This document shows positions 3,021-63,830 of a DNA stretch of 64,000 nt, piece after piece. Origin of the DNA: Corallium rubrum (lineage: Eukaryota; Cnidaria; Anthozoa; Scleralcyonacea; Coralliidae); contig OZ035997.1 of the NCBI GenBank assembly GCA_964035015.1, forward strand, positions 17,509,923 through 17,573,922, written 5' to 3'. The notes beneath the pieces were generated by a model. That model saw nothing but the letters and a program-made list of their open reading frames with translations, was not told where the DNA came from and did not search any database. Position numbers and translations under genes: made by a program. The stretch's first letter is position 1, and every line of letters starts with the position of its first letter.

Positions 3021-3043
3021 AAGCCGATAGGCCGAGAAGCGAT
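3021..3043 (-). ncRNA. U2 snRNA gene copy 1, 5' fragment (nt 1-22)
   Basis: Read on the minus strand it begins ATCGCTTCTCGGCC, the invariant U2 5' end, and then reads TATCGGCT before switching to retrotransposon sequence. Metazoan U2 continues AAGATCAAGTGTAG at this point. No matching 3' half exists to the left, so this copy is destroyed. Its candidate PSE is at 3,094-3,101. Confidence 0.93.
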
Positions 3044-3156
3044 AACAACCAATAAAAAAGTTATGTTTTGCCTGGGAAGAAGCTGAAGCAACGATGTGGT
3101 TCGGCCCAGGTCAGCCCACGTGCTCGAAGCGTCTGAAAGAAAAAAAAAAGAAAAAG
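3044..3156 (-). promoter_or_regulatory. U2 promoter region with proximal sequence element and 5S terminator
   Basis: This 113-bp gap separates the 5S 3' end from the U2 start. AACCACAT (sense) lies at 3,094-3,101, that is -58 to -51 of U2, exactly where the same octamer sits upstream of U1. A T-rich run TTTTTTATTGG is at about -20. Next to the 5S end, sense TTTTTCTTTTTTTTT is a typical RNA polymerase III terminator. The layout repeats in every unit (25,184-25,295; 30,595-30,706; 42,466-42,578; 52,084-52,195; 63,831-63,944). Confidence 0.7.
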
Positions 3157-3276
3157 GTGTCTACGACACGGGGTATTCCCAGCCGGTCACCCATCCAAGT
3201 ACTAACCCCACCCGACTGGGCTTAACTTCGGTGATCAGACGAGAACCGGTGCTTTCCCGGTGGTATGGTCGTAGAC
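3157..3276 (-). rRNA. 5S rRNA gene copy 1
   Basis: This is a 120-nt gene beginning GTCTACGACCATACC and ending GTCGTAGACACC, so the terminal stem closes. It includes the internal control region words GATCACCGAAGTTAAGC and TTAGTACTTGGATGGGTGACC. Compared with the other copies, GACCGCCTGGG is GACCGGCTGGG here, a one-base change in the 3' domain. TATAAAAG lies at -30 to -23 and a T-run follows the 3' end. Confidence 0.96.
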
Positions 3277-3298
3277 ATTCGAGGAGGTGAAAATGTCG

Positions 3299-3306
3299 CT
3301 TTTATA
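3299..3306 (-). promoter_or_regulatory. TATA-like box of 5S rRNA gene
   Basis: Sense TATAAAAG occupies -30 to -23 relative to the 5S start at 3,276. The same octamer is at the same distance upstream of 5S copies 2, 3 and 5 (25,438-25,445; 30,849-30,856; 52,338-52,345). In copy 4 it is TACAAAAG (42,721-42,728). An upstream TATA-like element near -25 is known to support pol III transcription of 5S genes in several invertebrates. Confidence 0.65.
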
Positions 3307-3424
3307 GCGGTTGTTCGGCGTTGTGGCACGAGAGGCCGACGAGGAACAGAAGAACGGTGAAATCGAATGATCCACGAAGTTGTGTGCTCGCGTTGGATGA
3401 GTTTCCTTTCGATTGGTTTGTTGT

Positions 3425-3589
3425 AAGGGGACGAGCGCGAACACAGGTCCCCACTACCAGAAGTTATACGCTCGAGTTACCCACATTTGGAGTAATTGCA
3501 GGAGTCAACCCAGTCGAAGTGCAATGAGAGGGCCTCATCCTGAGAGGACTTCCTTGTTGATCAAAGTACCTCTCGCGTCAGGTAAGTAT
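3425..3589 (-). ncRNA. U1 snRNA gene copy 1
   Basis: About 165 nt. The 5' end ATACTTACCTG is the 5' splice-site-recognition sequence. Stem-loop II carries ATTGCAC (U1A loop). Stem-loop III is followed by the Sm site and the final hairpin GGGGACC...GTCCCC. In this copy the Sm site reads AACTTCTGG rather than AATTTCTGG in the other four copies, and loop III has two further changes, so this copy may be impaired. Its upstream PSE-like octamer is at 3,640-3,647. Confidence 0.95.
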
Positions 3590-3863: not shown

Positions 3864-4164
3864 ATTTTTGTATTTTTGTATTTAAAATTTATTTAGACAC
3901 GGTAACCATTCAGCAATTACAGCTGATTTTCAATGGGCCGTGCTATTACAATAAAAATATAAAAAGAAAATTACAAAAGATGTGAAGCCTACTTACTAGT
4001 CAGCTTCACGCTATAGTAGGTACTTATTACAATTTTACAACTATTATAACTACATAAATATATATTAATAAACACTAAAATAAATACTTTGAAGCCTATT
4101 CACACATATTACATGCATACAGTTTTGCATGAATTAATTAAGGTAATCTGCCACTCCAGTGCTG

Positions 4165-7056
4165 TCAACTTCTCCCCAAAGCATTAAAGTAATTATTAAT
4201 TAAGGTTTTGAAACTTCTTGTGGAGAGTTCATTATAGCAATTGACAGCATTGTTTGGCAGTTCATTCCATGCAGAAGCCCCCCGATACGAAAAAGATTTT
4301 TTCATGAAGTCAGTATTAGGTTTTCCTAAGTAGAGTTTACAGTCGTTGCTCCTTAACTGATACATATCATGGTTAAACTTAAACATTTCTGACATGTAAC
4401 CTGGTAGCTCGTCTTGGATGGCCTTAAATGTCGTCATAATTTCACGTTTCTTAAGTATGTTTTCAATTGGTTCCCAGCCTAAGCGTTCAAAGATTTCCCT
4501 AGATCTTATCTCATAGCTTGATCCGGTGATCACTCGAGCAGCTCTTTTTTGCATTTTATAAAGTTTATTAATATGTGTACAACTACCATCACTCCACACG
4601 GTAGAACAGTATGTGAAGTGAGGTAAAACTAATGAGTTATACATAGTAATGACCGTATCCAAGGTTACAAAACTTTTCGCGCGTCTTAATAATGCAATAG
4701 ATTTAGAGATCTTTTTACGTTGTGCATCAATATGCTCTCTGCATTTTAATTCTTCGTCCAGAATAATCCCTAGTACTTTCTTGTTTGTGACCTGTTTAAT
4801 GTTATAGCTACCAATTGTTATGTTGGGGTTTCCTGAAAATTGTTTCAATTTCCTCTTTGACGCTATTAACATAAATTCTGTTTTTTCTGTGTTAAGAGTT
4901 AGCTTGTTTGTCTCTAGCCAGATATTAACATTATGCAGATCATTGTTTATCTTATTTTCAATCTCTAAAAGCGAAGTACCAGAGCTTGATATACTGGTAT
5001 CGTCTGCAAACATTGAGGCCTGGGTTTGTTCCAGGCAATTTGGAAGATCATTAATATATACTGAGAATAATAATGGACCTAAATTAGAACCCTGCGGTAC
5101 TCCGCATGTTATTATATTCAGCTGTGAATCAATTCCTTGTATCGAGCACTTTTGCATTCTATTACTTATGTATGATTTAAAAAGATTCAGAGCTACTCCT
5201 CCAATTCCATAAATCTTTAGTTTTGATATTAAAATTTGGTGATCAACCGTATCGAACGCCTTTTTAAGATCAATGAACAAGACACCGTTTAGTATGCCTT
5301 TATCCATGTTCAATAGATATTGATCTGTTATTTGCAAGAGAGCAGTTTCTGTGGAATGGCACTTTCGAAAGCCAGATTGTTGTTTGACAATGATATTATT
5401 GTCATTTAAATAAAGAGCTAATTGATCTGAAATGAGCATTTCTAAGACCTTTGCAATTGCCGATATTACGGAGATTGGTCTATAGTTTCCACTTTCACTT
5501 TTATCTCCGTCCTTGAAAATTGGAGTTACTCTAGACTGTTTTAAATCGTCTGGGAATATACCAGTTACCAACACCAAGTTAAATATATAGAGCAATGACT
5601 CATATATAGTGTATCCTGCAGCCTTCAACAATTTATTTGTGATTTTATCAAGTCCTGCTGCTTTGTTTGTTTTCATCCTATTTAAAACATGAGTTAAATC
5701 CTCGACAGAGATTTGTTTAAACTCAAATCGGCTAGTACAAGGAGTAATGTATTGTAGGTGATCAACATTATTTGTTGGAATTTTTCCAGCCAATTTAGGT
5801 CCTATCTCACAGAAAAACTTATTGAACTCATTGGCAATGTTTTCATTGCCAGTAACGGTTTGTCCATCAACTTTAAGTTGGTTCAGTGCTGTTATTTTAG
5901 GTTTCCTTTTAAGTAATTCATTTATATACTTCCAACTGTCTTTACTATTTTTGCTATTCTCGAGCTTTGTTTGATAATAATGTGTTTTTGAATTCCTTAT
6001 TAACTTAGTAACTTGGTTTTTGCATCTTTTATAAGCCTCGTGATATGTAACAGAATTTAATTTCACTGCTTGTTTCTTAAGGTAATCTCTATGGTAACTT
6101 AGCTTTTTAATATCATTGTTAAGCCATGGGCAGCTTTCATTTCTTATTTTCCTAGATCTATATGGCGCATGAATATCTGCAATTTGATAAAATATTTCCT
6201 TCCACTCATGCAATGCAGTGTTCGGATCTGAATGTAACGTAAAGTATCTGAACGCTTCTGATAAGTCATGCTGGAAATCGCCTATATTAAAGTTTTTAAA
6301 TTGCCTTGTTTCTATAAACTTTGGTTCCTGCTTAGGAATTCCTATTTTTCTACAAATATATGCCAAGTTATGGTCACTTATACCCAATTCCATGACACCC
6401 GATCGAATAGTTTTAGTATCATCAATTTTCGTGATTATGATGTCTATCAATGTTTTTGTGTTAATGGTAGTTCTGGTTGGCATGTTAATATGTTGTTGTA
6501 ATTGGTAGATGTCTATTAGGTCCTGAAGTGTCCTAGTATTAGCATTATTATTACTATGGCTATTTAACATATTGCAGTTGAAATCACCTGTTATGACCAT
6601 CTCTTTATTTTCATTGTCGATATTTTTAAGGAAAGTTTCGAATTCATTGAAAAATTGCGGTTTTGATCCTGGAGGGCGGTACCAAGTAGAAACTAATAAT
6701 GGTTTACTTTTTGGCTTTCTTATTTCGAGACAAATTGCCTCAGCAGTATCAGGAGACAAATCAGTCCTATTTATGTATGGAATTATACTCCTTACATAAA
6801 CAGCTACTCCACCTCCATTTCGATTTCTGTCTTTCCTTATCAAGTCATAACCAGCTATTTCAACTTCAGAATTATATATAGAGCTATCAAGTCTTGTTTC
6901 ATTAATACAGAGTACATCAAAAGGTTGCTTAGATATAAATATAGACAATTCATCTATGTGTTTCATTAAGCTAGCAATATTTAAATGTCCAACCCTGAAG
7001 CCCTTAAGCTTGGGATAAGTCACTTCACACTCGTTTAAACTATTAATTGATGTCAA
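4165..7056 (-). CDS. CR1-type ORF2: APE endonuclease and reverse transcriptase
   Basis: 963 codons, uninterrupted. The first about 240 residues form an AP-like endonuclease with HLNIASL, NETRLD, TGDFNCN and SDHN, the conserved catalytic blocks. The reverse transcriptase follows at roughly 430-720, with NYRPISV, an FRKCHSTETALL segment, KKAFDTVDH, GVPQGSNLGPLLF and the catalytic FADD. A basic C-terminal region containing RAARVITGSSYEIRS, common in the Jockey/CR1 group, ends the protein. It nicks target DNA and primes reverse transcription of its own RNA. It differs from the second copy (33,521-36,415) by few residues and one missing Asn. All catalytic motifs are intact. Confidence 0.95.
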   Translation of the reverse strand: MTSINSLNECEVTYPKLKGFRVGHLNIASLMKHIDELSIFISKQPFDVLCINETRLDSSIYNSEVEIAGYDLIRKDRNRNGGGVAVYVRSIIPYINRTDLSPDTAEAICLEIRKPKSKPLLVSTWYRPPGSKPQFFNEFETFLKNIDNENKEMVITGDFNCNMLNSHSNNNANTRTLQDLIDIYQLQQHINMPTRTTINTKTLIDIIITKIDDTKTIRSGVMELGISDHNLAYICRKIGIPKQEPKFIETRQFKNFNIGDFQHDLSEAFRYFTLHSDPNTALHEWKEIFYQIADIHAPYRSRKIRNESCPWLNNDIKKLSYHRDYLKKQAVKLNSVTYHEAYKRCKNQVTKLIRNSKTHYYQTKLENSKNSKDSWKYINELLKRKPKITALNQLKVDGQTVTGNENIANEFNKFFCEIGPKLAGKIPTNNVDHLQYITPCTSRFEFKQISVEDLTHVLNRMKTNKAAGLDKITNKLLKAAGYTIYESLLYIFNLVLVTGIFPDDLKQSRVTPIFKDGDKSESGNYRPISVISAIAKVLEMLISDQLALYLNDNNIIVKQQSGFRKCHSTETALLQITDQYLLNMDKGILNGVLFIDLKKAFDTVDHQILISKLKIYGIGGVALNLFKSYISNRMQKCSIQGIDSQLNIITCGVPQGSNLGPLLFSVYINDLPNCLEQTQASMFADDTSISSSGTSLLEIENKINNDLHNVNIWLETNKLTLNTEKTEFMLIASKRKLKQFSGNPNITIGSYNIKQVTNKKVLGIILDEELKCREHIDAQRKKISKSIALLRRAKSFVTLDTVITMYNSLVLPHFTYCSTVWSDGSCTHINKLYKMQKRAARVITGSSYEIRSREIFERLGWEPIENILKKREIMTTFKAIQDELPGYMSEMFKFNHDMYQLRSNDCKLYLGKPNTDFMKKSFSYRGASAWNELPNNAVNCYNELSTRSFKTLINNYFNALGRS

Positions 7057-7119
7057 GCTGTTCGGAATTGTAGAATTTTCATCAGTGTTACCTACTATGG
7101 GACTTTCATAATGAGGCAG

Positions 7120-8808
7120 TCAATACTTAATTTTTAAAGTGTCAATAATATTTTTTGCAAAAGTTGCAGTCCCTTGATTATTAAGGTGAACCCCATATGG
7201 ATTTAAGTGCTTTCCAAGGATATTTTTGTGAGATATAAGACCCCAATTATTATTGGTGCATACCTGTGATAACTTCGTATTGACTTGTTTAACTTTAGTA
7301 TTAATTTGTGGGTCATCGTTCCTTGTTATCAATTCTGAGATGATTAGCTTCGTTGTTGGGAATTTCTTGTTAATCTCTTGCCCAAGGTTAGCTATTGATG
7401 TTGATATTTGGTGTGGGGAACTTTGCTTTAAATCATTCGTTCCGACATGCATGATCAAATAATCAGGGGCATAATTCAGCGTTGGCTTAACGTAGTGATG
7501 CATATCTGCCACTATTGCTCCAGGGAAAGTTTTAACATTGACATTTCGCTTGAGACTTTTTCGGAGCTTTGCCGGATTGACGTATTTAATCATCGAGTCT
7601 CCGACAATGGCTACATCAACGTGACGGTCCAGTTTCGAGCTCTGCTGGCTTTTTGACTCATCTTTATTGACTTGTTCTTGGTTTGGTTTGCTTTTGGACC
7701 TAAGTGGTCCTTTATTGCGGTTTAATTGGGTGTTGTTGGATTGAATACATTTGTCCTTGCTACTAGAGGATCCATCTTGGCCTTGAGTTGTTATGGTCAT
7801 TTCATTATCGTCATCAATACACGTGTTTTTCCTGGTAGAAGATCCATCTTGGCCTTGTGTTGTTATGATCACTTCATTATCATCATTAACATCACTTAAA
7901 ATTGAGTAGCGATTATTTTTTAATTGATTACTACTATTGTATTCCGTTTCACCTGACTTGATTTGAGACCCTGATGGAGTGTTCTTTTGTTGATTCGCAA
8001 CATTCCACAGCATAGATTTATTACATTTTTGATCTTCTTGTAAAATTTTTATAACTGTGATTAGGCTATTTTTCTCGTCTTCAAGATCTTTAGTTTTGGC
8101 AGTCATATCCGACACTATAAGTTTGTAATTATTCAACTGCTGTGTCAGTGCTGTATTTTCTTTCTTCAGCGAAATATTTTCAGTCCTAAGAAGTACTTTA
8201 TATTCATCTTGTTGTGACGCTTCGTTGCGGCTTACATTAGCGTCGCTCGTATTAACAGATTTCAACTCTTGAAATTCTTGCCGAAGCTTCTCGAATTTGT
8301 ATTCTAGCCGCTCTTCGAGACTTCTCATTTGATTAAGAGCTGCTGTTACTTTCATCTCTTCGCTCGAGTTAGAAGTAATTCCGCTTTCTATGTTTTCTTT
8401 ATCGCCATACCCGTCGCTAGAATGTGTTAAAGCTTCGCCGTACTCGTCGCTAGGGTGTAATAAGGTTTCGTTCATCGAGTTGTTGTAATTCACCATAGTT
8501 CTTAGTTGAGATTTAAGGTCGTCGCTTTCTTCTCCAGATATTGTTAGAGAATTGTTCTTATAATACCATCTTATTATACCATTATCCAGCTCGAGTTGTT
8601 TACAGTCACCGCCTGGCGATGTCCATGATGTTTTCTTTTCGAACAATTTATCCATGAAAGCTGTTAGATTTTCGAACGAGCCATTCCATTTAAGCTTTCC
8701 TTTATCGGTTATGCTTAAATGTTCAACGATGCTGTTACTGTACATACAGCTATTTTCCAAATTAGTAAGAGAAATATCGGAGCTATCAAACAGACGTCCT
8801 TCCGCCAT
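7120..8808 (-). CDS. CR1-type ORF1 with coiled coil and SGNH-hydrolase-like domain
   Basis: 562 codons, open. Residues roughly 150-260 are heptad-rich and charged (coiled coil; likely multimerisation). From about residue 400 the protein resembles the SGNH/GDSL esterase domain known from ORF1 of some CR1/L2 elements: block I VAIVGDSM, block III HVGTNDLK, and a C-terminal PYGVHLNNQG corresponding to block V. The Asp normally three residues before the block V His is Tyr in both copies, so catalysis is uncertain. It lies 63 bp upstream of ORF2 on the same strand. Its role is probably RNP assembly, membrane association or both. Confidence 0.88.
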   Translation of the reverse strand: MAEGRLFDSSDISLTNLENSCMYSNSIVEHLSITDKGKLKWNGSFENLTAFMDKLFEKKTSWTSPGGDCKQLELDNGIIRWYYKNNSLTISGEESDDLKSQLRTMVNYNNSMNETLLHPSDEYGEALTHSSDGYGDKENIESGITSNSSEEMKVTAALNQMRSLEERLEYKFEKLRQEFQELKSVNTSDANVSRNEASQQDEYKVLLRTENISLKKENTALTQQLNNYKLIVSDMTAKTKDLEDEKNSLITVIKILQEDQKCNKSMLWNVANQQKNTPSGSQIKSGETEYNSSNQLKNNRYSILSDVNDDNEVIITTQGQDGSSTRKNTCIDDDNEMTITTQGQDGSSSSKDKCIQSNNTQLNRNKGPLRSKSKPNQEQVNKDESKSQQSSKLDRHVDVAIVGDSMIKYVNPAKLRKSLKRNVNVKTFPGAIVADMHHYVKPTLNYAPDYLIMHVGTNDLKQSSPHQISTSIANLGQEINKKFPTTKLIISELITRNDDPQINTKVKQVNTKLSQVCTNNNWGLISHKNILGKHLNPYGVHLNNQGTATFAKNIIDTLKIKY

Positions 8809-8830
8809 GACTGCCTGCCTGTGGCCGTCA

Positions 8831-8912
8831 TGGAATCAAGTAAGCCGTGAATGTTACTTGTGCTGTTGATGAGTTTTTGCTTTATTTTCGATGGTGATGT
8901 TCTTCCCCGAAG
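8831..8912 (-). promoter_or_regulatory. U2 3' flank with UUCG hairpin
   Basis: Downstream of U2 the sense strand reads TCTTCCC-TTCG-GGGAAGA (8,901-8,918), a 7-bp stem with a UUCG tetraloop overlapping the mature 3' end. It is preserved in U2 copies at 26,138, 31,465, 43,338 and 52,954, and with one end change at 10,309. It could be a 3'-end formation or stability element. The rest is the spacer interrupted by the CR1 insertion. Confidence 0.55.
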
Positions 8913-9081
8913 GGAAGAGGGCCGTACTCGGAGGTAGTGCAATACCGAGACAACCCATGGCCAGGGCGAAGCAAGCTTCAATCCCATGGCCGAAGCCCAA
9001 AAATCAGTTTAATATATGAGCCAGGCGTTGCCTGGCATATCAGATATTAAGCTGATAAGAACAGATACTACACTTGATCTT
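8913..9081 (-). ncRNA. U2 snRNA gene, 3' part (nt 23 to end)
   Basis: Sense AAGATCAAGTGTAGTATCTG starts the fragment. It continues with the stem-loop IIa/IIb region, the Sm-type site GATTTTTGGG, and stem-loop IV CTCGGTATTGC...CTCCGAG. The 3' end position near 8,913 is by alignment to metazoan U2 and uncertain by a few bases. Upstream it is joined to the 3' end of an ORF1-only element (9,082), so nt 1-22 are missing and the gene cannot give normal U2. Confidence 0.93.
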
Positions 9082-10172
9082 GTTTTGAAGTTAAGCCCCC
9101 TCAGGACATAGAGATGCTCCTCGGTGCAATGGCATCGTGGGTCCCTGAGTGCAAGGGACTATTCTGCGGAGGTGGCTTACGCTTGCCACTCAGACCAAAA
9201 GAGGATGCGACCCTCTCTCCGTTGCGCCAGAAACGACAAAAATGGTCACCCAGGACCGATCCACTTGAAGCGGACCAGCCGAGGGAGTTGGAAATGACTG
9301 AAAATTAGGGAGTGACCATGAAATGGCCAACACCACCTAATCCACATGAGCAAACGATAGTGCGAGTTTCCAATGTCACGAGGGAAATCCCGGTCGAATG
9401 CCTCGCGAGATTCCACATGGAGCTCGTGAAGTGCTTGCACAGCCTCCGGAGCGAAAGCCATGCAGACCCTGTCATTTCCAACAGGCTCCTCTATGACCTC
9501 CACTTCTGGTGCCGAGTCCAGGTGGATCCGAAGAGCCACCCGTCGCAGGGTCAACGTCCAAGGCATGTTTCTTCGCAAGTGGCTCAGAGCCACCCGACGA
9601 ATCCTCCATCACCTCGACTGGGGCCCCTGGCTGGGATGAAGAAGGGGCATCCGAAGGGGCCACGGCCTTCTTTGACTTCCTCCTACGGTTACGCTTGCAC
9701 TTACGCTGAGGCCCCGGAGGGGCCACGTCATCCGCACCGGCCCCCGAAGAAGGATTCACCTTCGTCTCCGTGACAGTGTCCTGCTTCTTAGGGCAGCGGC
9801 GAGACTCATGTCCAGCCACTCCTCAATTGAAACAGGTGCGAACCTGCCCCTGGTGGTAGACCAGCCCAGCATGACCGCAGATACGAACTCGCGTCGGGAT
9901 GGCCTCTCGCAGCTCCATCAGAATCTTGACTGTCCCAGTCCTCACGTTCCGGAACAGCACATAGACGAGCTTACACACCTCCCCATAGCGACCGAAGAAT
10001 ACTTTTAATTCCTCCTCCGGTATGCCATAGGGCAGGTGTGTTACGGTGATCCAACTCCGATTCTTATAAGAATAGGGCCGGATCGTGCACGGAAAGCCAC
10101 GGATGGTGATACCAGCCGCGATGACGTTTTCCAAAATCTCCGGCGACGTGCCCCAGAGATGGAAGCGGTCAG
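9082..10172 (-). mobile_element. ORF1-only Tx1-type element, partial copy (HAL-like a)
   Basis: The 3' end joins U2 nt 23 (sense ...CTTCAAAAC then AAGATC), as at 23,366. The roughly 230-bp 3' UTR is shared with the complete copy at 23,366-25,161 and directly follows the ORF1 remnant, with no trace of ORF2. An internal deletion of about 215 bp removed the end of ORF1. The 5' half is missing: at about 10,172 the sequence jumps into the U2-U1 spacer of another unit, an apparent deletion by recombination. Confidence 0.8.
9313..10172 (-). pseudogene. ORF1 (RRM-like plus zinc knuckle) remnant
   Basis: It encodes, from the right, SDRFHLWGTSPEILENVIAA, an RRM-like stretch with VTHLPYGIPEEELKVFFGRYG, and then VRTCFN followed by a stop where the intact copy has CFHC of the zinc knuckle. 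The frame resumes as GHESRRCPKKQ, a Lys/Arg-rich tail and an acidic Ser-rich tail. A premature stop and a C-terminal deletion make it a pseudogene of the family whose best copy is 23,613-25,040. Confidence 0.78.
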
Positions 10173-10321
10173 AGGCGCTGGATCGTTGCTGGTTTTTGTT
10201 GATAGCTGTAAAATATAAACAATTGATGTGCAGAATTAGTGGAATCAAGGAAGCCGTGAATGTTACTTGTGCTGTTGATGAGTTTTTGCTTATTTTCGAT
10301 GGTAATGTTCTTCCCCGAAGG
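10173..10321 (-). other. U2-U1 spacer fragment at recombination junction
   Basis: The sequence from AGGCGCTGG through GTGGAATCAAGG to the UUCG hairpin matches the normal spacer downstream of U2 (compare 25,999-26,155). The spacer is cut at about 10,172, where ORF1 sequence begins. The U1 gene, the 5S gene and the U2 5' end expected to the left are all absent. Confidence 0.8.
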
Positions 10322-10472
10322 GAAGCGGGCCGTACTCGGAGGTAGTGCAATACCGAGACAACCCGTGGCCAGGGCGAAGCAAGCTTCAAGCCCATGGCTG
10401 AAGCTCAAAAATCAGTTTAATATATGAGCCAGGCGTTGCCTGGCATATCAGATATTAAGCTGATAAGAACAG
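10322..10472 (-). ncRNA. U2 snRNA gene copy 2, 3' part (from nt 40)
   Basis: It begins, in sense, CTGTTCTTATCAGCTTAATA and runs to the U2 3' end. Changes relative to other copies include GGAAGCGGGCC near the 3' end. Upstream (right) it joins the 3' end of Utopia-1. The corresponding U2 5' end is at 25,162-25,183, some 14.7 kb away behind three Utopia elements and one ORF1-only element. Confidence 0.9.
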
Positions 10473-10817
10473 AGTTCTTTTATTAAAACCTAAATGTATT
10501 TCCTATGTTTTGATGTGTGTGGTGGTCGAAAAGAGGTCGCATACGCTCATTTACGTCGTAGCTTCCTGAGTAAGGCATGTGTCCGATTGACATCTTATAT
10601 CTTGTTTTTATTAGTTTTGGGTGTCTGCAGTTTGAAATGAGGAGAGTTAAGCTCATAGTGGGTTGGGCTGTCATAACCTCCTGTATCCTATAGCATGAGT
10701 CCTAGTGACTACTATGTATGCGTTTAAATTACGTTAGGTGCCATGAGTTGGCAAATTAAAGTTTAAAGTGTGTGCAATTGTGTACGCCTAATGCGTTAAA
10801 AGAAAGGTTTTGTCGCC

Positions 10818-15524: not shown

Positions 15525-15542
15525 TTAAGCTGATAAGAACAG
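15525..15542 (-). repeat. U2 target-site duplication between Utopia-1 and Utopia-2
   Basis: Sense CTGTTCTTATCAGCTTA (U2 nt 40-56) stands alone between two head-to-tail elements. It is the 5' flank of Utopia-1 and the 3' flank of Utopia-2. The expected last bases ATA are changed. Confidence 0.85.
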
Positions 15543-15914
15543 AGTTCTTTTATTAAAACCTAATTGTATTTCCTATGTTTTGGTGTGTGTGGTGGTCGAA
15601 AAGAGGTCGCATACGCTCATTTACGTCGTAGCTTCCTGAGTAAGGCATGTGTCCGATTGACGTCCTATTTCTTGTTTTACTAGTTTTGGGTGTGTGCAAG
15701 TTGGAAATGAGAAGGATTAAGCTCATTGAGGGTTGGGCTGTCATAATCTCCTGTATCTTATAGTATGAGTCCTATTGACTACTATGTATGATAATAAATT
15801 ACATTAGGTGCCATGAGTTGGCAAATTAAAGTTTAAAGTGTGTGTGAACATGTGTACCTAATGTACAAATGGAATGGCATCAAGCAGTTCCTTTGGTGCC
15901 AATGGCACGTTGTC

Positions 15915-51727: not shown

Positions 51728-52060
51728 AAATCAAAAATCCAGAGTCCAGTCCAAATTCCAAGTACCACGAAAAGATCAGTCCAAGAGTGGAGCCGGCTGG
51801 CAACCACACGAATCCGCCAAGGAATACGGCCAAGGGTCCTCACACAAACACACACAGAACTTGACCACAGCACACGACCAAGGAGATTCTGGTCCACCAA
51901 AAGACACCAAGAACTGACCAAACCAAAAGACGGCGTTGAAAACTCAGAGGTGTAAAAGTGTTACCACAGTAAAACTGCGGAGCATGGATCCACCTTAGTC
52001 ACCTTTGAAGCTCGTAGACTCTCGAAGACTCTCGAAAACTCGGGAACAGACCTATCGAAC

Positions 52061-52083
52061 AAGCCGATAGGCCGAGAAGCGAT
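52061..52083 (-). ncRNA. U2 snRNA gene copy 5, 5' fragment (nt 1-22)
   Basis: Sense ATCGCTTCTCGGCCTATCGGCT, with the TATCGG variant also seen in copy 1. PSE-like octamer at 52,134-52,141. Confidence 0.93.
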
Positions 52084-52195: not shown

Positions 52196-52315
52196 GTGTC
52201 TACGACACGGGGTATTCCCAGGCGGTCACCCATCCAAGTACTAACCCCACCCGACCGGGCTTAACTTCGGTGATCAGACGAGAACCGGTGCTTTCCCGGT
52301 GGTATGGTCGTAGAC
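52196..52315 (-). rRNA. 5S rRNA gene copy 5
   Basis: 120 nt with complete terminal stem and internal control region (GAAGTTAAGCCC, GGTTAGTACTTGG). TATA-like box TATAAAAG at 52,338-52,345, T-run terminator. Probably functional. Confidence 0.96.
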
Positions 52316-52464: not shown

Positions 52465-52508
52465 AAGGGGACGAGCGCGAACGCAGGTCCCCACTACCAG
52501 AAATTATA

Positions 52509-52540
<32 letters not shown>

Positions 52541-52629
52541 GGAGTCAACCCAGTCGAAGTGCAATGAGAGGGCCTCATCCTGAGAGGACTTCCTTGTTGA
52601 TCAAAGTACCTCTCGCGTCAGGTAAGTAT
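52465..52629 (-). ncRNA. U1 snRNA gene copy 5
   Basis: 165 nt. 5' end ATACTTACCTGACGCGAG, U1A loop ATTGCAC, Sm site AATTTCTGG, final hairpin GGGGACCTGC...GTCCCC. It matches the consensus of the five copies throughout. PSE-like octamer at 52,680-52,687. Confidence 0.96.
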
Positions 52630-52965
52630 GCATGTGTTTGTCGCAGAAAGCCTATGACCGGGTACTACGAGTCAGCGGCATGTGGTTAATAGGGTAATTT
52701 GTCGGCAACTGAATTTCGACAGCCAGCATGCCGATTAAACAATAATGAGGACAGAAACGTGCTGACCTACCCCTCTCGGTCTTTAACGACGGTGTTGTCG
52801 TGCGGCGTCGAACTCGATGTGTGCGGGGCACTGGATCGATGGGTTCTGTTGATATCTGTAAAATATAAAGAATTGATGTGCAGAATTAGTGGAAGGAAGC
52901 CGTGTATGTACTGTGTTGTTGATGAGTTTTTGCTTTATTTTCGATGGTGATGTTCTTCCCCGAAG
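52630..52965 (-). other. U1 upstream region and U2-U1 spacer
   Basis: Short spacer type, nearly identical to 43,013-43,349. U2 3' hairpin at 52,954-52,971. No gene or insertion was seen. Confidence 0.65.
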
Positions 52966-53121
52966 GGAAGAGGGCCATACTCGGAGGTAGTGCGATACCG
53001 AGACAACCCGTGGCCAGGGCGAAGCAAGCTTCAATCCCATGGCCGAAGCCCAAAAATCAGTTTAATATATGAGCCAGGCGTTGCCTGGCATATCAGATAT
53101 TAAGCTGATAAGAACAGATAC
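52966..53121 (-). ncRNA. U2 snRNA gene copy 6, 3' part (from nt 36)
   Basis: Sense GTATCTGTTCTTATCAGC to the U2 3' end, joined to the poly(A)-like tail of element A. The sequence otherwise matches the copy consensus. Confidence 0.93.
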
Positions 53122-53174
53122 TTTTTCTTTCTTTAAAATTTATTCCTTTTATCTTTCTAATTACAGGTTACCGA

Positions 53175-56100: not shown

Positions 56101-56774
56101 GACATGCTCTAACATGGGCATGCGTGTCGTTCACCAGCTCATCCGATATGTACCAACGGTCCAGTCGGGACCGTAGCGTAAAATCTTTGTTGTGCCAAGT
56201 GAAAACTCTCGTCGTCTGGTTAATGTGTCGCCAAATGTCCGTTAGTCTTAGTGGTTCTGTTAGTTTGCATAGCTCATCGACTCCGAGGGTTCCACTACCT
56301 GGGTTTCCCCCTAACTTATCAAGGGCTGGATCCTCGACACAGTTGAAGTCCCCCCCCCAGGAAAAGGTTGTCGTGTCCTGTCAGGTAAGTCCAAATGTCA
56401 TCGTAAAAGCGTTTCCGTTGCGTCGGTATTGTTGGTGCGTAGATGGTCATCACTGTGAATTCTACGCCTCTTGTCCTAATTCTCAGTGATAGTATCCTTC
56501 CGTCTGTATTACGTCGCAGGTCTTTAATGTCAAAGTTTAGTTTTGCGTTGAAAAAAATCGCCACCCCCCGGCTCCTGTTACTACCATGGCTCCAAAAAGC
56601 CTCACCACCCCATTCAGTAGTCCATGCGTTTGTTTGTAAATTGTCTGTGTTGTGTGTTTCTTGAAGGCAGTAAATGTCAGCGTCTATAGTGCGTAAGTAG
56701 TTAAATATCAATTGTCTTTTCTTGTGTTCGGCTATTCCATTAACGTTTAATGTGACAATTTTGATTTTAGCCAT
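53175..56774 (-). pseudogene. ORF2 of element A: APE endonuclease, RT, C-terminal CCHC
   Basis: It starts MAKIKIVTLNVNGIAEHKKR. Endonuclease blocks: LNVNG, LQETHN, then a frame change in a run of ten C (about 56,348-56,357) at the GGDFNC block, and HSDHSAVE. RT: NWRPISLLNADYKILAKIMA, DQTCGINERSIYENLLRLRD and INIDQEKAFD, followed by stops near 54,985-54,900. It resumes with RRGVRQGCPLSPLLYTIVGE and QYADDSTLTL. The C-terminal CCHC is CPFCPKREDINNALFECQRA. A MITE interrupts the end. Confidence 0.87.
53331..53466. mobile_element. 136-bp hAT-like MITE
   Basis: Terminal inverted repeats begin CAGGGTTG and extend over about 35 bp (TTGCTGAATAAATAAGCC... on the left, its complement on the right). They are flanked by an 8-bp direct repeat CGTAAAAC (53,323-53,330 and 53,467-53,474). 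The length, ends and 8-bp duplication are those of hAT-type non-autonomous elements. The interior is AT-rich and nearly palindromic. Confidence 0.9.
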
Positions 56775-57961
56775 TGATGTAAGGGTTCCGGTTCTTGGCC
56801 TCGGACATTACTACCGTTCTCTTTTTCGGTGGTTGTGGGGCCTCCGAGTCGGAGGTTCTTGTGCGTTTGCTGTTCTCCTTGTCAATATCCATTGTCTTGG
56901 GGTCATATCCCGCGGGGAAAATATCCTGTGTTGTCTTCTCGTTTTCGGTCGTTTCTGATTGGTTTCCCTCCATTCTTTCGATGGTAGTGGTTTCACCAAT
57001 ACCGTTTGAACTATGTTCTTTGGTTGTATTCGAATCAGAGTCTTTAGCGCCTTGCGTAGTCATCGCAATAAACTCGGTATTTTCTGTCTGGTTTATTAAC
57101 TGCGGGGTTTCCTCTGTGCCTGGGTTGGTTGGTGCGCTGTGGTTGTTAAAATCGCGATTATTTCCCAAAACCCTTCGATTCCCGTTACCAGAACCCCACG
57201 TACAGTTAAGAGGAAGTGTCGATCGAAAACCGTGTTGATCTTCCTCGTTTCGTTCAGTGATCTGTTCGTCAGAATTTTCACCCAAAGATGGGAAGTTATC
57301 TTGGTATGTTGTGCAATCAAATTCTCTATGGCCTTGTTTGCCACAGTGATAGCATCGTTGTTTTGGGCATTCTGCTTTGCCGTGGTCGGGAGATCCACAT
57401 TCTTTACACACCTTACCGGCTTGGCAGTCTTTGGCTAGATGGTCTGGGCTTTGGCATTTTCTACAAGTTTGAGTTTGTCCCTCGTAACTTACTCGAACCT
57501 GGTTCTTCCCGACGTAGACAAAAGATGGAATGGCGTGAATAATATTTACCTCGGCCACTTTGACTCCGGTCTTGAGATCACAAACTCTGTCCGTTTGATC
57601 TCTAACATATTTAACGTGTTCGTAGAAAGATAAGACAGTGTTTACCAGACGTGGATCAGAATCCAGCGGATAACCAAATAGTCGTATAAATCACTCGTGG
57701 TTTCGGTGGGTTCGGGTGGCATAATTTCACTTGTTTCCCTTCATATTGAATCTGTTTACCCGCGTGGCTGTTTCTGTTTACATTGGATGAGAATACTATA
57801 AACCACTTGGTTTTGTTTGCTCTCTCGATTCCTTCGAGTTCTTCTTTATTAATTCCAATTTCTAGGAGCGCTTTCAGTAAATCCAAACGTGTATTGACAT
57901 GACCATCTTCGGTGGCCGGGTCTGGTTCGAGATTTACGTACAGAGAGCGACTTCTGGACAT
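56767..57961 (-). pseudogene. ORF1 of element A: three-knuckle RNA-binding protein
   Basis: It starts MSRSRSLYVNLEPDPATEDG. It has the conserved KWFIVFSSNVNRN segment, a frame change near 57,690, and then three CCHC knuckles: CRKCQSPDHLAKDC, CKECGSPDHGKAEC and CYHCGKQGHREFDC. A Thr/Glu/Asn-rich tail ends NRNPYING. Its last codons overlap the ORF2 start (ATGGCTAA at 56,767-56,774), suggesting coupled termination and reinitiation. Confidence 0.86.
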
Positions 57962-58109
57962 CTTCGCATTGTTTTCTTCGCTACTTCTTAAAACTTCAGT
58001 ATTCTTCTGTCTTTTCCTTCTTTCCTATTAGCCGAAGCTACTAGGATTAAGCTGAAAATAACTTCAAAAGGAGCAAATTAGCGGAGCTCGAAAAGACACG
58101 TCTGTTCTG

Positions 58110-58124
58110 GATAAGAACAGATAC
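58110..58124 (-). repeat. U2 target-site duplication between elements A and B
   Basis: Sense GTATCTGTTCTTATC (U2 nt 36-50) stands between two head-to-tail Keno-like elements. Confidence 0.9.
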
Positions 58125-58210
58125 TTTTTTTTTCTCTTTAAATAATTTATTTCTCTGTAACTTTACATTAAATCAATCCCACCGGACATAATAACTTATC
58201 CGTTTCTAAT

Positions 58211-61200
58211 TTATATCTTAAGAACTAATTTTAAGTTGTCATATGAACAAAGAACATTTTTATAGTTCCATATATTCCGAATGTTACTAGGTCTTCGTTG
58301 TTCATCTATCTTTATCCTTTGCCGTCTTTCATACACGATGGTGTCGTACAGGTCACCTTCCTCAAAGGATTGGTTGAAAGTTCGTCTGTTTCTATTCTTC
58401 CAGAGCGTGAAAACCGTGAGGTTTAAGATATAACGAAGCAATAGTTGTGCTGATTCATCTGTCGGAAATCCGTCGGAAAAAACTAAGGAGTCAAAGGAAA
58501 CTACCAATTGTGATCCAGCTATCGCCCACAACGTGTTCCTCAAACGCACCCACAATTGTTTGGCGCGATCACAGTTTAGAAGCGCATGTAGCATATCCTC
58601 CGCTTGTGTACAAAACGAGCACGTCTTCGAAATTCTCAGTCCCCATTTCCTCAGATACATCTTGGTCGGCAGTACTCTATGAAAAAACTTCCAGATTGTC
58701 TCAGCTTCTTGACTTGTCGACAGTAGGTTCCAAATGCTTCCCCACACTTCGGGGGGCCAAAGCCTTTACTGCCTTCACTGTAGGTTCTTTATGCTGAATT
58801 AAGTTGTAGATGTTCTTAGACGTCATTTTTTGTTTCTCCATTGTCTCATATGCGTCCCGGTCTTGTTGAATGGTCGTCTTGACAGTCTTGTACCATATCG
58901 GTGTGGTCGTGGGGTCAGCGTGTGGTTTTAAGCTTGTCCTAAGCCAAATCCACTCCCTTCGAATTGTACTTAATTCCATTCCAAGCCAGTATCTAGCGTA
59001 GTGTAGCCATATTGTTTGTTTCTCCTCATCCGTAATTTGTCGGATCCACTTTGTTTTGAGTGCTTTGTTAATAGCATGGAAGTTGGGGATATCCAAGCCT
59101 CCTCTCTCTTTCGGTAGACTACATGTAGTTCTTGATACTAGTTCATTTTTCTTATCCCATAAAAAGGAGTATGTTAGTTTGTTTATCGCTGTGACAATCC
59201 TGTCCGGAATGTCGAAAACTGTCGTCAAATACGTTATGGTCGCTAGGGCATATGTCTTGATTAAAGTAGTTTTGCCGATCATTGTCAATGCTCTTGAAGT
59301 CCATCGATCTATTCTGTTCTCCAGTTTAATTAATTGGTTATCCCAATCTTGCTCCATTACATTCCCCATTTTAGTTCCCAAGGTCTCGATAGCGTCTGTC
59401 ACCCAGTGAATTGGTACCGGTCCGTGAATTCTGCCGGCTTGTTGCCCTACATAAATGCCTTTGGTTTTATCCATGTTCAGTTTGCTAGTCGATGCCGCTT
59501 CAAATTTGTTGATAATGTCAAAGGATCATGTGACCGACATATCGTCCTTTAGTGTCAGTGTACTATCATCTGCATATTGTGCAATCTTGCTCCGTTTAAT
59601 GCATCCTGGAATATGAATTCCGTGTATTCTGTCGTCATTGCGTATTGCATTTCCCAATACTTCTGCCACCACAGTATATAGTAGGGGAGACAATGGGCAT
59701 CCTTGACGTACTCCTTGTCTAAGATGAACTGGATCTGAAAACCATCCATTGTTAATAATCTGGCTGTTCGCTCCTTCGTACAATATTGCAATCCAGTGAC
59801 AAAAGGATTTGCCGAAATTCATTCGAGTCAGAATTTTATAGAGAAAGGTCCTGTTGATCCTGTCGAAGGTTTTTTCCTGATCAATATTTATCAAAATTAG
59901 GTTTGTATTATTCTTAGTTGTAGAGTAGATCATGTCGCGAAGTCTGAAAAGATTGTCGTAAATACTCCTATCTTGTATTCCGCAAGTCTGGTCTTCGTCT
60001 ATCACAGACGGAAGTGCTCGTTTAAGTCTCTTGGCCATAATTTTGGCCAAAATTTTGTAGTCTGTATTTAAAAGTGATATGGGTCTCCAGTTCTTTAGTA
60101 GTTGTTTGTTATCTTTTTTGAAGATCAGGCGCAATAAGGCCCTTTTCTGAGATTGGGACATTTCTCCTTGGTCATAGTTTTGGTTGTAGATATCTGTTAA
60201 AACGCCATTTAGCTCTCGTTGAAAAACTTTGTAGAACTCAGCAGGTATCCCGTCGGGTCCTGGTGCTTTGTTAGATGTAAGGTCCTTTATTGCTTGCTCT
60301 GTTTCCTGTAAGGTCACTGGGCCGTCACACTCAACCCGCTCGTTGTCTGTCAGAATCGCTTGTATCTGGTCAAGAAACCAGGCTTGTTGCGCGTTGTCTG
60401 TCTGTTCGTCTGTGTATAGTTCTTGGTAATATCTTCTCGTTTCTTCTAAGATTTCGGCATCGTCTGTCACTGTTTTGTTTTGTGGAGTGATTAATTCCGT
60501 AATAGTGTTCCGGGGTTGTTTCTTTGTTTCAAGTGAAAAGAAAAACTTCGTGGGTTTTTCTCCATCTTCAAGCCATCTTGTATTTGTGCCCCACGTAGTT
60601 GTTCGTCATCAGTCTCTCGTATTTGTGCTTCGATTTCAAGTATTTTCGCGATGTTTGGATTTAATTGTTGTTTCAAGGTCGTTAGTTTCTTAAGTAGCTC
60701 TTGTTTTAGCTTAAAACGTCTTCGTGATTTGGCCACACTATGCTTGATCGTTATTTCTTTCGTTCTTGTTTTGAAAATGTCCCACCACTCTGCCAAAGTT
60801 GGGTATTCTTGTTTCGTGGTTTTCCAGTAGGTTATGAATGCTCGCATTTCTCGTTGGTAATATTTATCACGCAAAATATTAACGTTCATCTTCCAAATAC
60901 CCGGTCCTGCCCGGCGTTGCTTTTTAATTATAAAGTCAAGATCTACTGCGCAGTGGTCTGTATACGGGCATGCTCTAATGTGTGTCTTGGCTCCAGACAT
61001 CGTGGAAATCGGTATATACCATCTGTCCAGTCTTGTTCGTATCGTAAAGTTCTTGTTATTCCATGTGAAAACTCGATCATCTTTGTGCAGTTGTCGCCAT
61101 ACGTCTGTCAGGTTTAATGTTTGTGTAAATCCGAGTAGTTCGTTGATTCCTTCCTTCCCACTGAGTGGGTTGCCACCTAATTTGTCCTTGGATGGGTCTT

Positions 61201-61651
61201 CAATACAATTGAAATCCCCTCCTATAATAACGTTTTTGTTTCCGGTATTAAAGTTCCATAAGTTATTAAAAAATTCTTTACGTTGTTTGTCTCCCGTAGG
61301 TGCGTAAACCGTCATTAAGTTTAGTTCTGACTCATTTATAAAGATTTTCATTGCTGTTATACGTCCTTCTGTATCCATGACCACTTTTTCCAGCTCGGCT
61401 TCAAGGTTTTCTTTCAAAAATATTGCCGTCCCGCAGCTTCTATTAGTGCCCAAGCTCCAAAAGCCCTTGCCACTCCACTCAGTTGTCCAATTTGTTGCGT
61501 TGCTTGACGTAGCGCAATGAGTTTCTTGTAAAAAAAATATATCAGCGTCAAATTGTTTTAAGTAATGAAATATTCTTGATCGTTTCGGTTGTTCTGCGAT
61601 ACCGTTCACGTTTAGGGTTAAGAGTTTTAATTTGAATGTTTGACCATATAA
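58211..61651 (-). pseudogene. ORF2 of element B: APE endonuclease, RT, C-terminal CCHC
   Basis: It begins KLLTLNVNGIAEQPKR. The codon corresponding to the usual ATG of relatives is not in this frame (ATGGTC lies in the ORF1 frame). Endonuclease: LNVNG, LQETHC, IGGDFNCIED and YTDHCAVD. A frame change occurs near 60,580. RT: NWRPISLLNTDYKILAKIMA, DQTCGIQDRSIYDNLFRLRD, RQGVRQGCPLSPLLYTVVAE and QYADDSTLTL. A TGA lies at about 59,526 and a frame change near 58,740. C-terminal CCHC CSFCTQAEDMLHALLNCDRA. Confidence 0.86.
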
Positions 61652-62943
61652 GGGTTTCTGACCTTGGCATGCGAGACCCTCGCTTTCTGTTTTTTGGCTG
61701 GTGGTTGTCGTTTAGGGCTCCACGGTACAGACTTGTCACGTCTCACCAGTGTTTTCCGTTTTGTTCCACCCTTCCCGGATGGTTTTGTGGTATTTACGTC
61801 GGTAGACAAATGATCTGATTCGGGGTTTCCCCCATCCGTCTCGCCGTCTTCGCTTTCGATATTATTCCCGTTGTTATTCTCCGCTGTGTTTACTTGATCA
61901 GTATTCTTCTCGGTTTCACTCGTTTCTGCTTTCTCTAACCCAGTTTCCATTTCCGTCTCGTGGGTTTTCTCTTTCTCTTCCTCTGTGTTGTTGACTGAGG
62001 TCTCTTCTATATTTATAGCAGTGTCGTCAGATGTCTGGGGTGTTAATGTAATTGGATCCGTGACAACAGCGTTGTCAACGACTGTCTGGTTTTGAAATTC
62101 TGTCTGGCTCTCTGAGGAGATATTTTCAGCCCCAATTTCAGTTTCGGTTGAAGTTGTTGATATCGTATTTGTTTGTCCCTCGCTTGAGCTTTCTCCGAAT
62201 GGGGGAGTAAGGTTACTAGCTCCACCGGAGTTACCTTCATTTGTGTCGGTTAAAGCAGGAAATTCCTCTAGAAATTTCGGGCAGTTCGTCGCCAAATGAC
62301 CTTGTTCTTGGCAATAATAACACCTTCGACTTGGGCAGTTCGGTTTGGCATGATCGGGCGATCCGCATTCTTTGCAGACTACCCCGGCTTCACAATCTAT
62401 CGCCAGATGACCTGGCTTCTTGCATTTCCTGCATGTTTTAGTTTGACCATAGTAATCAATTCGTACTTGATATCTCCCGGCATAAATATATGACGGGATT
62501 TCACGTGTTAATTCCATGAGAATTTCTTTTACCCCGGTTTTGACATCGCATGTTCTGTCAAACAAATCTCTCATTCCGGAAGATTTCCCATAGTAAACCA
62601 GCGCTTTGTCCAGCGCTTCTGTGTCGGCGTCTAAAGGATAGCCATATATTCCAACTTTTGTGAGTTTACGCGTTGGTCTGGCCGGGTTGGGATGTTGCAA
62701 TGTAAACACTTGGTCGTTGCCTTTTATCATTTTTCCAATGGCTTGATTTCGTTGAACTTGTGACTGGAAGACGACGAACCACTTCGTTCTAAGAGCAGTT
62801 TCGATTCCTTCGACTTGTTCTTTTGTAATTCCTGACTCTAACAGTCCGTTTAAGATCTCCAAACGAAGATTGACCTGGCCATCTTTGGTGGTCGCGTCAA
62901 AATTCCCTTCGTTGGACAGCACACACGAGCGTGCTCTACTCAT
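61627..62943 (-). CDS. ORF1 of element B: three-knuckle RNA-binding protein
   Basis: 438 codons, open. Residues 15-70 hold the conserved KWFVVFQSQVQRN segment. An RRM-like stretch is at about 95-165. Three CCHC knuckles are at C171-C174-H179-C184, C190-C193-H198-C203 and C208-C211-H216-C221. A long Thr/Glu/Asn-rich acidic region and a basic C-terminus (KRKTLVRRDK) follow. It probably forms the element RNP. The three-knuckle layout distinguishes site-2 elements from the single-knuckle site-1 elements. Confidence 0.88.
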   Translation of the reverse strand: MSRARSCVLSNEGNFDATTKDGQVNLRLEILNGLLESGITKEQVEGIETALRTKWFVVFQSQVQRNQAIGKMIKGNDQVFTLQHPNPARPTRKLTKVGIYGYPLDADTEALDKALVYYGKSSGMRDLFDRTCDVKTGVKEILMELTREIPSYIYAGRYQVRIDYYGQTKTCRKCKKPGHLAIDCEAGVVCKECGSPDHAKPNCPSRRCYYCQEQGHLATNCPKFLEEFPALTDTNEGNSGGASNLTPPFGESSSEGQTNTISTTSTETEIGAENISSESQTEFQNQTVVDNAVVTDPITLTPQTSDDTAINIEETSVNNTEEEKEKTHETEMETGLEKAETSETEKNTDQVNTAENNNGNNIESEDGETDGGNPESDHLSTDVNTTKPSGKGGTKRKTLVRRDKSVPWSPKRQPPAKKQKARVSHAKVRNPYMVKHSN

Positions 62944-63072
62944 CCTGTTTTTTCTACAGAATCTTCCTAAAGACTTTGATAACCCATAGCCAAAAGGCTA
63001 AAGTCGTTGTTAAACTTGTAGTACCTAAAAAGATGAATATTCGAGAGCGCCAAAAACGTCTTCACCGGAAGT

Positions 63073-63100
63073 GATAAGAACAGATATTACACTTGATCTT
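63073..63100 (-). ncRNA. U2 fragment nt 23-50 between two insertions
   Basis: Sense AAGATCAAGTGTAATATCTG then TTCTTATC. GTAGTA is GTAATA here. Its right end joins the short site-1 element and its left end is the 5' flank of element B. Confidence 0.9.
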
Positions 63101-63806
63101 GTATTGAAGGGACAAGATCTGATGCCCCGCACCCCCATAAGGGAGCCACGTTAGTGGGATCGACTCTTCGGCCGAGCCTTTACCCACTCGCCAGCCACCC
63201 GTCGAGCCTCTGGAACGCCATAGGGATGTGCAGTGACGTCATACGGGAGCAGTGCGTTCCCTCGACAGAACCGTCTGTTAGGACTGCCTACGCTTAATGC
63301 AATCTCGGGCTCCCTAAAGCCGAACCTATTGCCGTCACTAGTAGTCCGAAGACTACATTATAGATCATAGGCGAGGCTACAATCATAGAATAATTAATTG
63401 GGACATTTTCCGCGCGAGCGCGATTTCTGACGGCATCGTAAACTCTTTGAAAAAAAAAAATCCGTCGCCTGCTCCAAACCACCATCACAGGTCTTCCTCT
63501 ACCCTCACAAGTCTACCCTCCCCCCTTCCCCCCACCATGCAATGTTGGTCCCTGGGGGTAGGCCTTACCCGCACCTCATACCATGTTTCTGAACCAACAT
63601 TGTATGGTGGGGGAGGGGGGGGGGAGGAGGAGGATAACTTAACTGTGCAAAATGCATCTTTGCTTAGAAGTGACATTGTTGCAAGTTGTCCCAATGTAAT
63701 TATTCCATGATTGTAGTCTTGCCACCACTAGTAGCCGAGGAGCATGCGAGCTACATCATAGATCGTAGGCGAACTGGTATTCCATCACCGGAATCCGTTC
63801 ATGGAC
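63101..63806 (-). mobile_element. short site-1 element, second copy, split by a MITE
   Basis: Matches 30,202-30,569 at both ends and throughout, apart from scattered substitutions and a MITE of about 320 bp (63,389-63,707). The same U2 flanks (nt 25 on the right, nt 23 on the left) are kept. Confidence 0.8.
63389..63707. mobile_element. Tc1/mariner-like MITE with TA target duplication
   Basis: Left end CAATCATAGAATAATTA and right end, complementary, TAATTATTCCATGATTG form 27-bp inverted repeats. TA flanks each side, and the empty site GAGGCTAGTCTTG is seen at 30,466. An inner inverted repeat (CCCACCATGCAATGTTGGT against ACCAACATTGTATGGTGGG, 63,531-63,613) and a G-rich run lie inside. No transposase frame. 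Confidence 0.88.
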
Positions 63807-63830
63807 TTAGCCAATAGGCCGAGAAGCGAT
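63807..63830 (-). ncRNA. U2 snRNA gene copy 6, 5' fragment (nt 1-25)
   Basis: Sense ATCGCTTCTCGGCCTATTGGCTAAG, then the short element. PSE-like octamer at 63,881-63,888. Confidence 0.93.

Follow-up and report, generated by a model that had tools for sequence, protein, structure and literature searches.

How does a tandem array come to have every one of its U2 small nuclear RNA (snRNA) genes broken, and where is working U2 then encoded? These questions are raised by a stretch of 64,000 nucleotides (nt) of the 474-Mb Corallium rubrum assembly, referred to here as the window (C1:17509923–17573922, C1 being contig OZ035997.1 of GCA_964035015.1), the minus strand of which is a tandem U2-U1-5S array. 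The answer reached below, to which we assign a probability of roughly 84%, is that the window represents a flank of such an array, degenerate and saturated with insertions, that working U2 comes from a nearby array, and that U2 is attacked by retrotransposons at two sites.

In a sequence-only reading of the window, the minus strand was described as carrying six 5′ ends and six 3′ parts of U2, with no 5′ end running on into its 3′ part, and the alignments bear this out (5′ ends starting at 63830, 52083, 42465, 30594, 25183, and 3043; 3′ parts ending at 52965, 43349, 31476, 26149, 10320, and 8912). The pieces represent seven genes, U2-I to U2-VII: five retain both halves, U2-VI retains only its 3′ half, the 5′ half having been deleted, and U2-VII retains only its 5′ half, the 3′ half lying beyond the window. 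Infernal returned seemingly full-length matches, which were rejected as intact genes because over the first ~35 nt the model is aligned there to foreign sequence. The breaks in U2 fall at two exact positions separated by about 15 bases, instead of at the single kind of target assumed earlier, and every U2 gene of the window is hit at one or both. All six 5′ pieces end at nt 22–25; the 3′ parts resume at nt 23 in two genes (U2-II and U2-VI; site 1) and at nt 36–39 in four (site 2). Site 1 lies exactly between nt 22 and 23, is entered without duplication or loss, and holds lineage A, an apurinic/apyrimidinic endonuclease (APE)-type lineage predicted to belong to the L1/Tx1 group. Site 2, at nt ~36–39, is the known target of Keno and Utopia and holds, often in tandem, the APE-type lineage B and the R2-like, restriction-like endonuclease (RLE)-type lineage C. 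The window therefore contains the three reverse transcriptase (RT)-bearing lineages that had been proposed, and the proposal of Keno/Utopia-type insertion likewise holds for B and C.

That functional U2 must come from elsewhere had also been suggested, and its source lies 0.3 Mb away on the same scaffold, in a plus-strand array (C1:17131840–17189722) with 38 U2 5′ ends, of which 30 belong to intact genes (29 identical over 192 nt) and eight to interrupted ones. Across the whole assembly, a 21-base U2 5′ pattern has 114 matches with at most two mismatches (0 for the reversed control); 100 of these are listed, and the adjacency counts given below use the listed ends. Intact U2 stretches spanning both sites, with at most three mismatches, number 30, all within C1:17132865–17188062, against 84 other U2 5′ ends, many of which cluster in the minus arm near the window and at C1:75.99–76.11 Mb. 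In the latter, a second cluster of U2 5′ ends, none is intact across both sites and several A elements have an open second open reading frame (ORF2); a third cluster, at C15:16.32–16.43 Mb, consists of A elements and of A2, an element that encodes only ORF1. Viral contigs yielded neither U2 junctions nor relatives of A.

In the working array, each of the eight interrupted U2 genes is cut at site 1, and in the seven with both ends visible (the eighth enters a gap) the element sits exactly between T22 and A23, with no base of the empty site duplicated or lost; six of these insertions are A2 (1.79–1.82 kb) and one is an A element of 6085 bp. It could be supposed that site 1 is no separate target, A and A2 having entered at the Keno/Utopia site and their boundary having been shifted later by deletions, and deletions beside A2 are indeed present in U2-III and U2-VI of the window; against this, the seven two-ended insertions share one exact junction, the same junctions occur in distant copies (at C1:76.0–76.1 and C1:14.79 Mb, with the 3′ junction on C15), and no young A copies were seen at nt 36–39, so that this derivation is barely credible. 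Queries consisting of one B relative, the ORF1 of B1, and one C relative detected no B or C in the part of the working array that precedes the gap.

In the 6085-bp element, ORF1 is open (466 aa from the chosen start), with a weak CCHC match (E 0.061; the CCHC match of A2 is above the cut-off), and ORF2 is open over 1177 aa, with EEP and RT domains closest to LINE-1 and a zf-RVT match just below the cut-off. Judged by this combination of an APE with an L1-group RT, A is a predicted L1/Tx1-group element. It is recent: beside the open-ORF element in the working array stands a copy at C1:76.00 Mb, 59 Mb away, that is 97.4% identical and has the same two junctions. A further A family, 64–67% identical, occupies the same site 1 at C1:76.10 Mb. 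Within the window, the RT of A1, the element in U2-II, also has LINE-1 as its best match, the start of its endonuclease lying upstream of a nested element. In an RT tree of 90 rows (hits P0001–P0040 and P0121–P0163, six more, and four C relatives, all longer than 600 aa), in which the other rows are mostly unnamed and no named Tx1 rows are included, A1 falls in a 41-row clade (99/95), apart from B; the element C2 was removed by the length filter. The RT region of A1 also contains a 322-bp tandem duplication, 99% identical (44711–45355).

A genome search with A ORF2 found 50 matches, confined to C1 and C15. Distances to U2 were counted for 39 of the 50, after 11 rows with lower scores, most of them additional pieces of copies already represented, had been dropped; 22 of these 39 places begin 1.84–2.65 kb past a listed U2 5′ end. 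Nine rows are near full length and free of stops. One of these belongs to the working array; of the other eight, the C1 clusters at 17.4–17.6 and 76.0–76.1 Mb account for six, C1:92.2 Mb for one, and C15 for another.

At site 2, B carries a CCHC ORF1 and EEP (Exo_endo_phos, 1.9e-15), RT, and zf-RVT domains, its endonuclease matching LINE-1, and B1–B3 form an 8-row clade (100/99) within a 10-row clade (89/86) of the RT tree. The 3′ flank of B reads (A)nGTATCTG, which places the cut somewhere between nt 35 and 39. Its relatives of at least 46% identity lie mostly at C1:17.25–17.62 and 75.98–76.12 Mb, with a few on C8, on C15, and elsewhere on C1. Lineage C matches R2 proteins (E 6.7e-16 for the C-terminal ORF of the element C1; E 8.7e-45 for the RT of C2), and its named relatives come from the octocorals Paramuricea, Dendronephthya, and Xenia, with hagfish and sea-spider sequences further down. 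Taken with the snRNA and 5S linkage known in Acropora (PMC8167085), these octocoral names would by themselves point to a host that is probably an anthozoan. The U2 flank starts at nt 39 in C2 and C3 and within 2 nt of this in C1 and in X, a partial C-type element. Apart from the window's own copies, a single close copy of C (at least 78% identical) was found, on C192; copies of 46–52% identity occur in the arm. Stacked site-2 elements are mostly separated by duplications of U2, of ~15 nt between B1 and B2 and 19 nt between C2 and C3, and the U2 pieces around C1 and ahead of C2 measure 21–23 nt; X is an exception, U2 ending at nt 35 before it and restarting at ~nt 37 after it, and the upstream junction of B3 has been lost. 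The 5′ ends of C1, C2, and C3 are 90–96% identical and the 3′ end of C1 is 81–85% identical to those of C2 and C3; despite these alike ends, the C1 protein is only 45–54% identical to those of C2 and C3, which points to exchange of ends or to a strong constraint on them. No Rfam match to a ribozyme was obtained in the first bases of C3.

The association of A2 with site 1 extends throughout the assembly. A search gave 46 matches from 39 candidates; the 14 full-length copies, all of 1.79–1.83 kb, abut a listed U2 5′ end without exception, as do 22 of the 23 matches that begin at the first base of A2. None of the 13 full-length copies that were read (of 14) has an ORF2, no longer parent copy of A2 was found in the assembly, and no full-length A2 is split by an ORF2; in broken copies with both ends listed the ends lie close together, several 5′ fragments being ambiguous. 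Selection was assessed on 14 copies, the 13 full-length ones and one on C15 that lacks the first 162 bases, of which 10 passed a motif filter for an unbroken 199-codon core and four were left out. The core is under purifying selection: the ratio of nonsynonymous to synonymous differences (pN/pS) is 0.221 in frame, compared with 1.15 and 2.16 when the two alternative frames are read (45 pooled pairs from 10 copies), and its variable columns number 30, 18, and 68 by codon position. Over the whole ORF, in four copies, the corresponding substitution ratio (dN/dS) is 0.40–0.55 and higher toward the C-terminal part, so that constraint is strongest in the core. In principle, this selection may have acted in an autonomous parent that is not seen.

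The third occupant of site 1 is D, a short interspersed element (SINE)-like sequence, for which 29 matches, from 23 candidates, were obtained genome-wide. In four of the eight dispersed loci that were read, a head consisting of U2 nt 1–25 is joined directly to the D body (L032, L033, L038, and L039, the last with one mismatch). In L034 and L035, which share their flanks and so represent one locus twice, a U2 start lies ~400 bases ahead of the body, and L036 and L037 are headless. L033 has a clear duplication of 15 nt and L038 one of 16 nt with a single mismatch; in L038 the D copy and its duplication lie inside what appears by eye to be a tRNA gene. At the 3′ junction, CAAAAC or CAATAC is followed by AAG in each of the six ends that could be read, from five independent loci, which matches U2 site 1, and the D tail resembles the tails of A2, CTTCAAAAC, and A, CCCAAAAC; because these tails are alike, D, A2, and A may share their machinery. 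Other identities for D were rejected or set aside: insertion into U2 only is ruled out by the dispersed copies, a tRNA gene or a known Rfam RNA by the absence of a tRNA and by microRNA-family hits that stay below the cut-off and mark an inverted repeat, and a Dada-type DNA transposon, as far as that group is characterized in the available part of PMC3706591, was set aside because the U2 head and the AAG 3′ junction fit retroposition. The inverted repeat is an insert within one D copy of the window (63380–63713) and is perhaps itself a short DNA transposon.

These elements may be members of a guild living on the first 22 bases of U2, in which an autonomous long interspersed element (LINE), a selected ORF1-only producer of Gag, and a U2-headed SINE would share one machinery for insertion at nt 22/23; the proposal is tentative, and we regard it as somewhat more apt to fail than to hold. 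If it is true, the Gag of A2 serves the spread of the group and is not a leftover, beside the independent lineages at site 2. The Gag of HeT-A, at fly telomeres, has likewise been proposed to serve the spread of a group.

The mechanism that we favor is target-primed retrotransposition into U2 at two neighboring sites. At T22/A23, A would insert without duplication or loss, and A2 and D would probably do so with its borrowed machinery; at site 2, B and the Utopia-like C would insert mostly with duplications of 15–23 nt. Such duplications keep the target sequence, so that elements stack in tandem, and each insertion spares the other site, so that occupancy is cumulative. Interrupted units would then escape concerted evolution, drift, and pile up as flanks of the array.

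The layout of the window, read along the minus strand, on which all of the following features lie, illustrates this accumulation. In U2-I, the 5′ piece (nt 1–25; 63806..63830) is followed by a D body with the inverted-repeat insert inside (63100..63805), a U2 fragment of ~nt 23–51 (63072..63100), B1 (58125..63071), an APE-type non-long-terminal-repeat element at site 2 with CCHC ORF1, EEP, and RT in broken frames, a duplication of U2 nt 36–50 (58110..58124), B2 (53122..58109), a second APE-type element at site 2 with an A-rich end and broken frames, and the 3′ part (nt 36–192; 52965..53121); U1 (52466..52629) and 5S (52197..52315) come next. U2-II contains only A1 (43519..52061), at site 1 between nt 1–22 (52062..52083) and nt 23–192 (43349..43518), into which a further EEP/RT element is nested at ~47290–50100; its U1 lies at 42849..43012 and its 5S at 42580..42698. 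In U2-III, nt 1–22 (42444..42465) precede the 5′ part of a site-1 A2 (41122..42443) that has lost its 3′ end and abuts B3 directly; B3 (31635..41121), an APE-type element, is split by a CR1-type element (33224–38180) and ends at site 2, where U2 resumes (nt 36–192; 31476..31632), followed by U1 (30976..31139) and by the 5S that scores lowest among the whole copies (30708..30826).

U2-IV begins with nt 1–25, the first base changed (30569..30594), and continues with a D body of 366 bp (30203..30568), a U2 fragment of ~nt 23–59 (30164..30202), the element C1 (26307..30163; R2-like RLE-type, Utopia-like, site 2, broken frames), and ~nt 37–192 (26149..26306), U1 (25620..25783) and 5S (25297..25415) completing the unit. 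U2-V is the most heavily loaded: after nt 1–22 (25162..25183) come a full-length A2 at site 1 (23366..25161), U2 nt 23–35 (23353..23365), X without a flanking duplication (21272..23352), U2 ~nt 37–59 (21249..21271), the tandem R2-like RLE-type elements C2 (15544..21248) and C3 (10475..15524) at site 2, separated by U2 nt 39–57 (15525..15543), and the 3′ part (~nt 39–192; 10320..10474). The spacer of U2-V is fused by deletion, at 10173/10174, to a 3′ fragment of A2 (9081..10173), which is all that the deletion has left in front of the U2-VI 3′ part (nt 23–192; 8912..9080). A CR1-type element (3867..8821) with long open frames separates the latter from U1 (3426..3589) and 5S (3158..3276), and the 5′ piece of U2-VII (nt 1–22; 3022..3043) leads at site 1 into the start of an A-type element with a gag-like region (1..3021) that runs past the window edge. 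A 52-bp tandem repeat is present inside this last element at 675–1195.

The U1 and 5S genes, held earlier to be free of insertions, are so: no insert is present in the five U1 (134–156 bits), in the five whole 5S, or in a sixth 5S truncated at the window edge. Their neighborhood is not entirely insertion-free, however, since the CR1-type element at 3867–8821 occupies a U2-U1 spacer. This element and the one inside B3 are 99.4% identical over 4958 bases, and both encode a GDSL-domain ORF and an open EEP/RT frame of 984–985 aa; they represent a young, non-targeted family.

The decay of this arm was gauged by comparing five window units and 23 working units each with one working unit. The window units differ at 14/808 positions in U2, 14/820 in U1, and 17/595 in 5S (1.7–2.9%), and at 144/1558, 50/750, and 24/566 in three spacers (4.2–9.2%), compared with 0–1.3% for the working units; the window units are thus the more diverged, and homogenisation does not extend from the working array to the arm. 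In the U1 at 25620..25783, C9, within the segment pairing with 5′ splice sites, is replaced by G, and the U2-II 3′ part has an altered Sm site. The sequence-only reading had seen here a dedicated refuge, which would make the arms a maintained reservoir of target-specific elements harmless to the host, beside a nearly clean working array. Part of this stands, as eight of the nine near-full-length, stop-free A ORF2s are situated away from the working array, open frames of 1152–1153 aa are present in B copies at C1:75.98 Mb, a C-type copy, 46% identical, has an open frame at C1:17575938, just beyond the window, and the queries named above detected no B or C in the working array. The claim of dedication, as put, is not supported: A-type elements have also cut 8 of the 38 working U2 genes, most U2-inserted elements of the window have broken frames in an arm no longer homogenised, and the arms could as well be tolerated as maintained. 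A maintained refuge is unlikely, although deserving of consideration, and degenerate flanks remain the preferred description.

Might intact U2 genes only appear interrupted, unrelated repeat copies having been joined by the assembler? Repeats are hard to assemble and gaps adjoin the working array, but the junctions are clean and accompanied by duplications, spacers differ between units (which argues against collapse), site-1 junctions recur at the distant loci named above, all 14 full-length A2 abut a listed U2 5′ end, and the 97.4% identical A copy repeats both junctions; an assembly artefact is thus very improbable.

Several observations weigh against the interpretation as degenerate flanks under two-site attack, or narrow it. 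The A relative at C1:92.2 Mb has the site-1 5′ junction, with no U2 recognised past its 3′ end in the bases read, and 17 of the 39 A ORF2 places are not paired with a listed U2 5′ end, a figure to be read with 100 of 114 ends listed and some copies truncated. Relatives of C of 42–53% identity lie on many other contigs, and C is thus U2-specific only as a candidate. That A mobilises A2 and D is argued from short stretches of similarity at their 3′ ends. Since the window genes have changed less than the spacers, some U1 and 5S genes here could still be used. Finally, the working array runs out into gaps of 200 and 5000 N, and how many copies it truly has, as well as how the arms are ordered and oriented, therefore depends on scaffolding.

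U2 copies are few, and here the balance between genes and insertions can be counted in one assembly (30 intact vs. 84 other 5′ ends) in which the working array, too, has been entered recently. That there are two sites explains how one gene can be shared by several lineages, the ORF1-only A2 makes it possible to ask whether a retrotransposon can survive as a protein-coding satellite, and an exact, duplication-free insertion site is of interest to research on targeted integration. As far as the literature was searched, the new features are the use of a second site, an occupancy that is both mixed and cumulative, and the association of ORF1-only and U2-headed satellites with site 1; site 1 itself appears unreported there, including in the available part of the Utopia paper (PMC4640811), Repbase and the 2004 Keno paper lying outside the comparison.

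Among known systems, linkage of U1, U2, and 5S has been reported in Acropora (PMC8167085, in the part available), and two U2-specific groups are described in the part of PMC4640811 on which the following comparison draws: Utopia, of the NeSL clade and RLE-type, and Keno, APE-type and of the Tx1 clade, which have a common flank at nt 39. Like Utopia, C has an R2-like RLE protein and, in C2 and C3, a flank from nt 39, and its duplications and tandem insertion recall the ~20 nt duplications of reptile Utopia and the tandem insertion of Utopia in Nasonia (PMC4640811). In Phytophthora and Nasonia several Utopia families share an array in which disrupted U2 exceeds intact U2, as here, and the authors were surprised that one genome sustains several U2-specific families (PMC4640811); unlike those arrays, the one described here is shared by APE-type lineages and is entered at a second site. 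B is likened to Keno by description (PMC4640811), having an APE endonuclease, an RT, a CCHC ORF1, and a 3′ junction in the same stretch of U2, and differs in a flank that begins 3 nt earlier than nt 39, at G36 behind an A-rich end, although those 3 nt may be the element's own. A agrees with the target-specific elements of the Tx1 clade in its ORF1 with a weak CCHC match, its ORF2 with EEP and RT, and its strict target (PMC4640811). What sets A apart is a target at U2 nt 22/23, entered without duplication, in place of nt 39 (7/7 two-ended working-array copies).

The satellites have their own counterparts. SINEU elements are snRNA-headed SINEs that occur at dispersed sites with duplications; D resembles them in carrying a head of U2 nt 1–25 on a body at dispersed sites with duplications, and is unlike them in lying also inside U2 genes at site 1, in ending like A2, and in appearing tied to a U2-specific partner. 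SINEU is named, and HAL1 (half-L1) described, in the available part of PMC5753468. As in HAL1, only ORF1 is encoded by A2 and reverse transcriptase would be borrowed; unlike HAL1 as described there, A2 is target-specific, has no longer parent copy that was found in the assembly, and keeps its ORF1 core under purifying selection.

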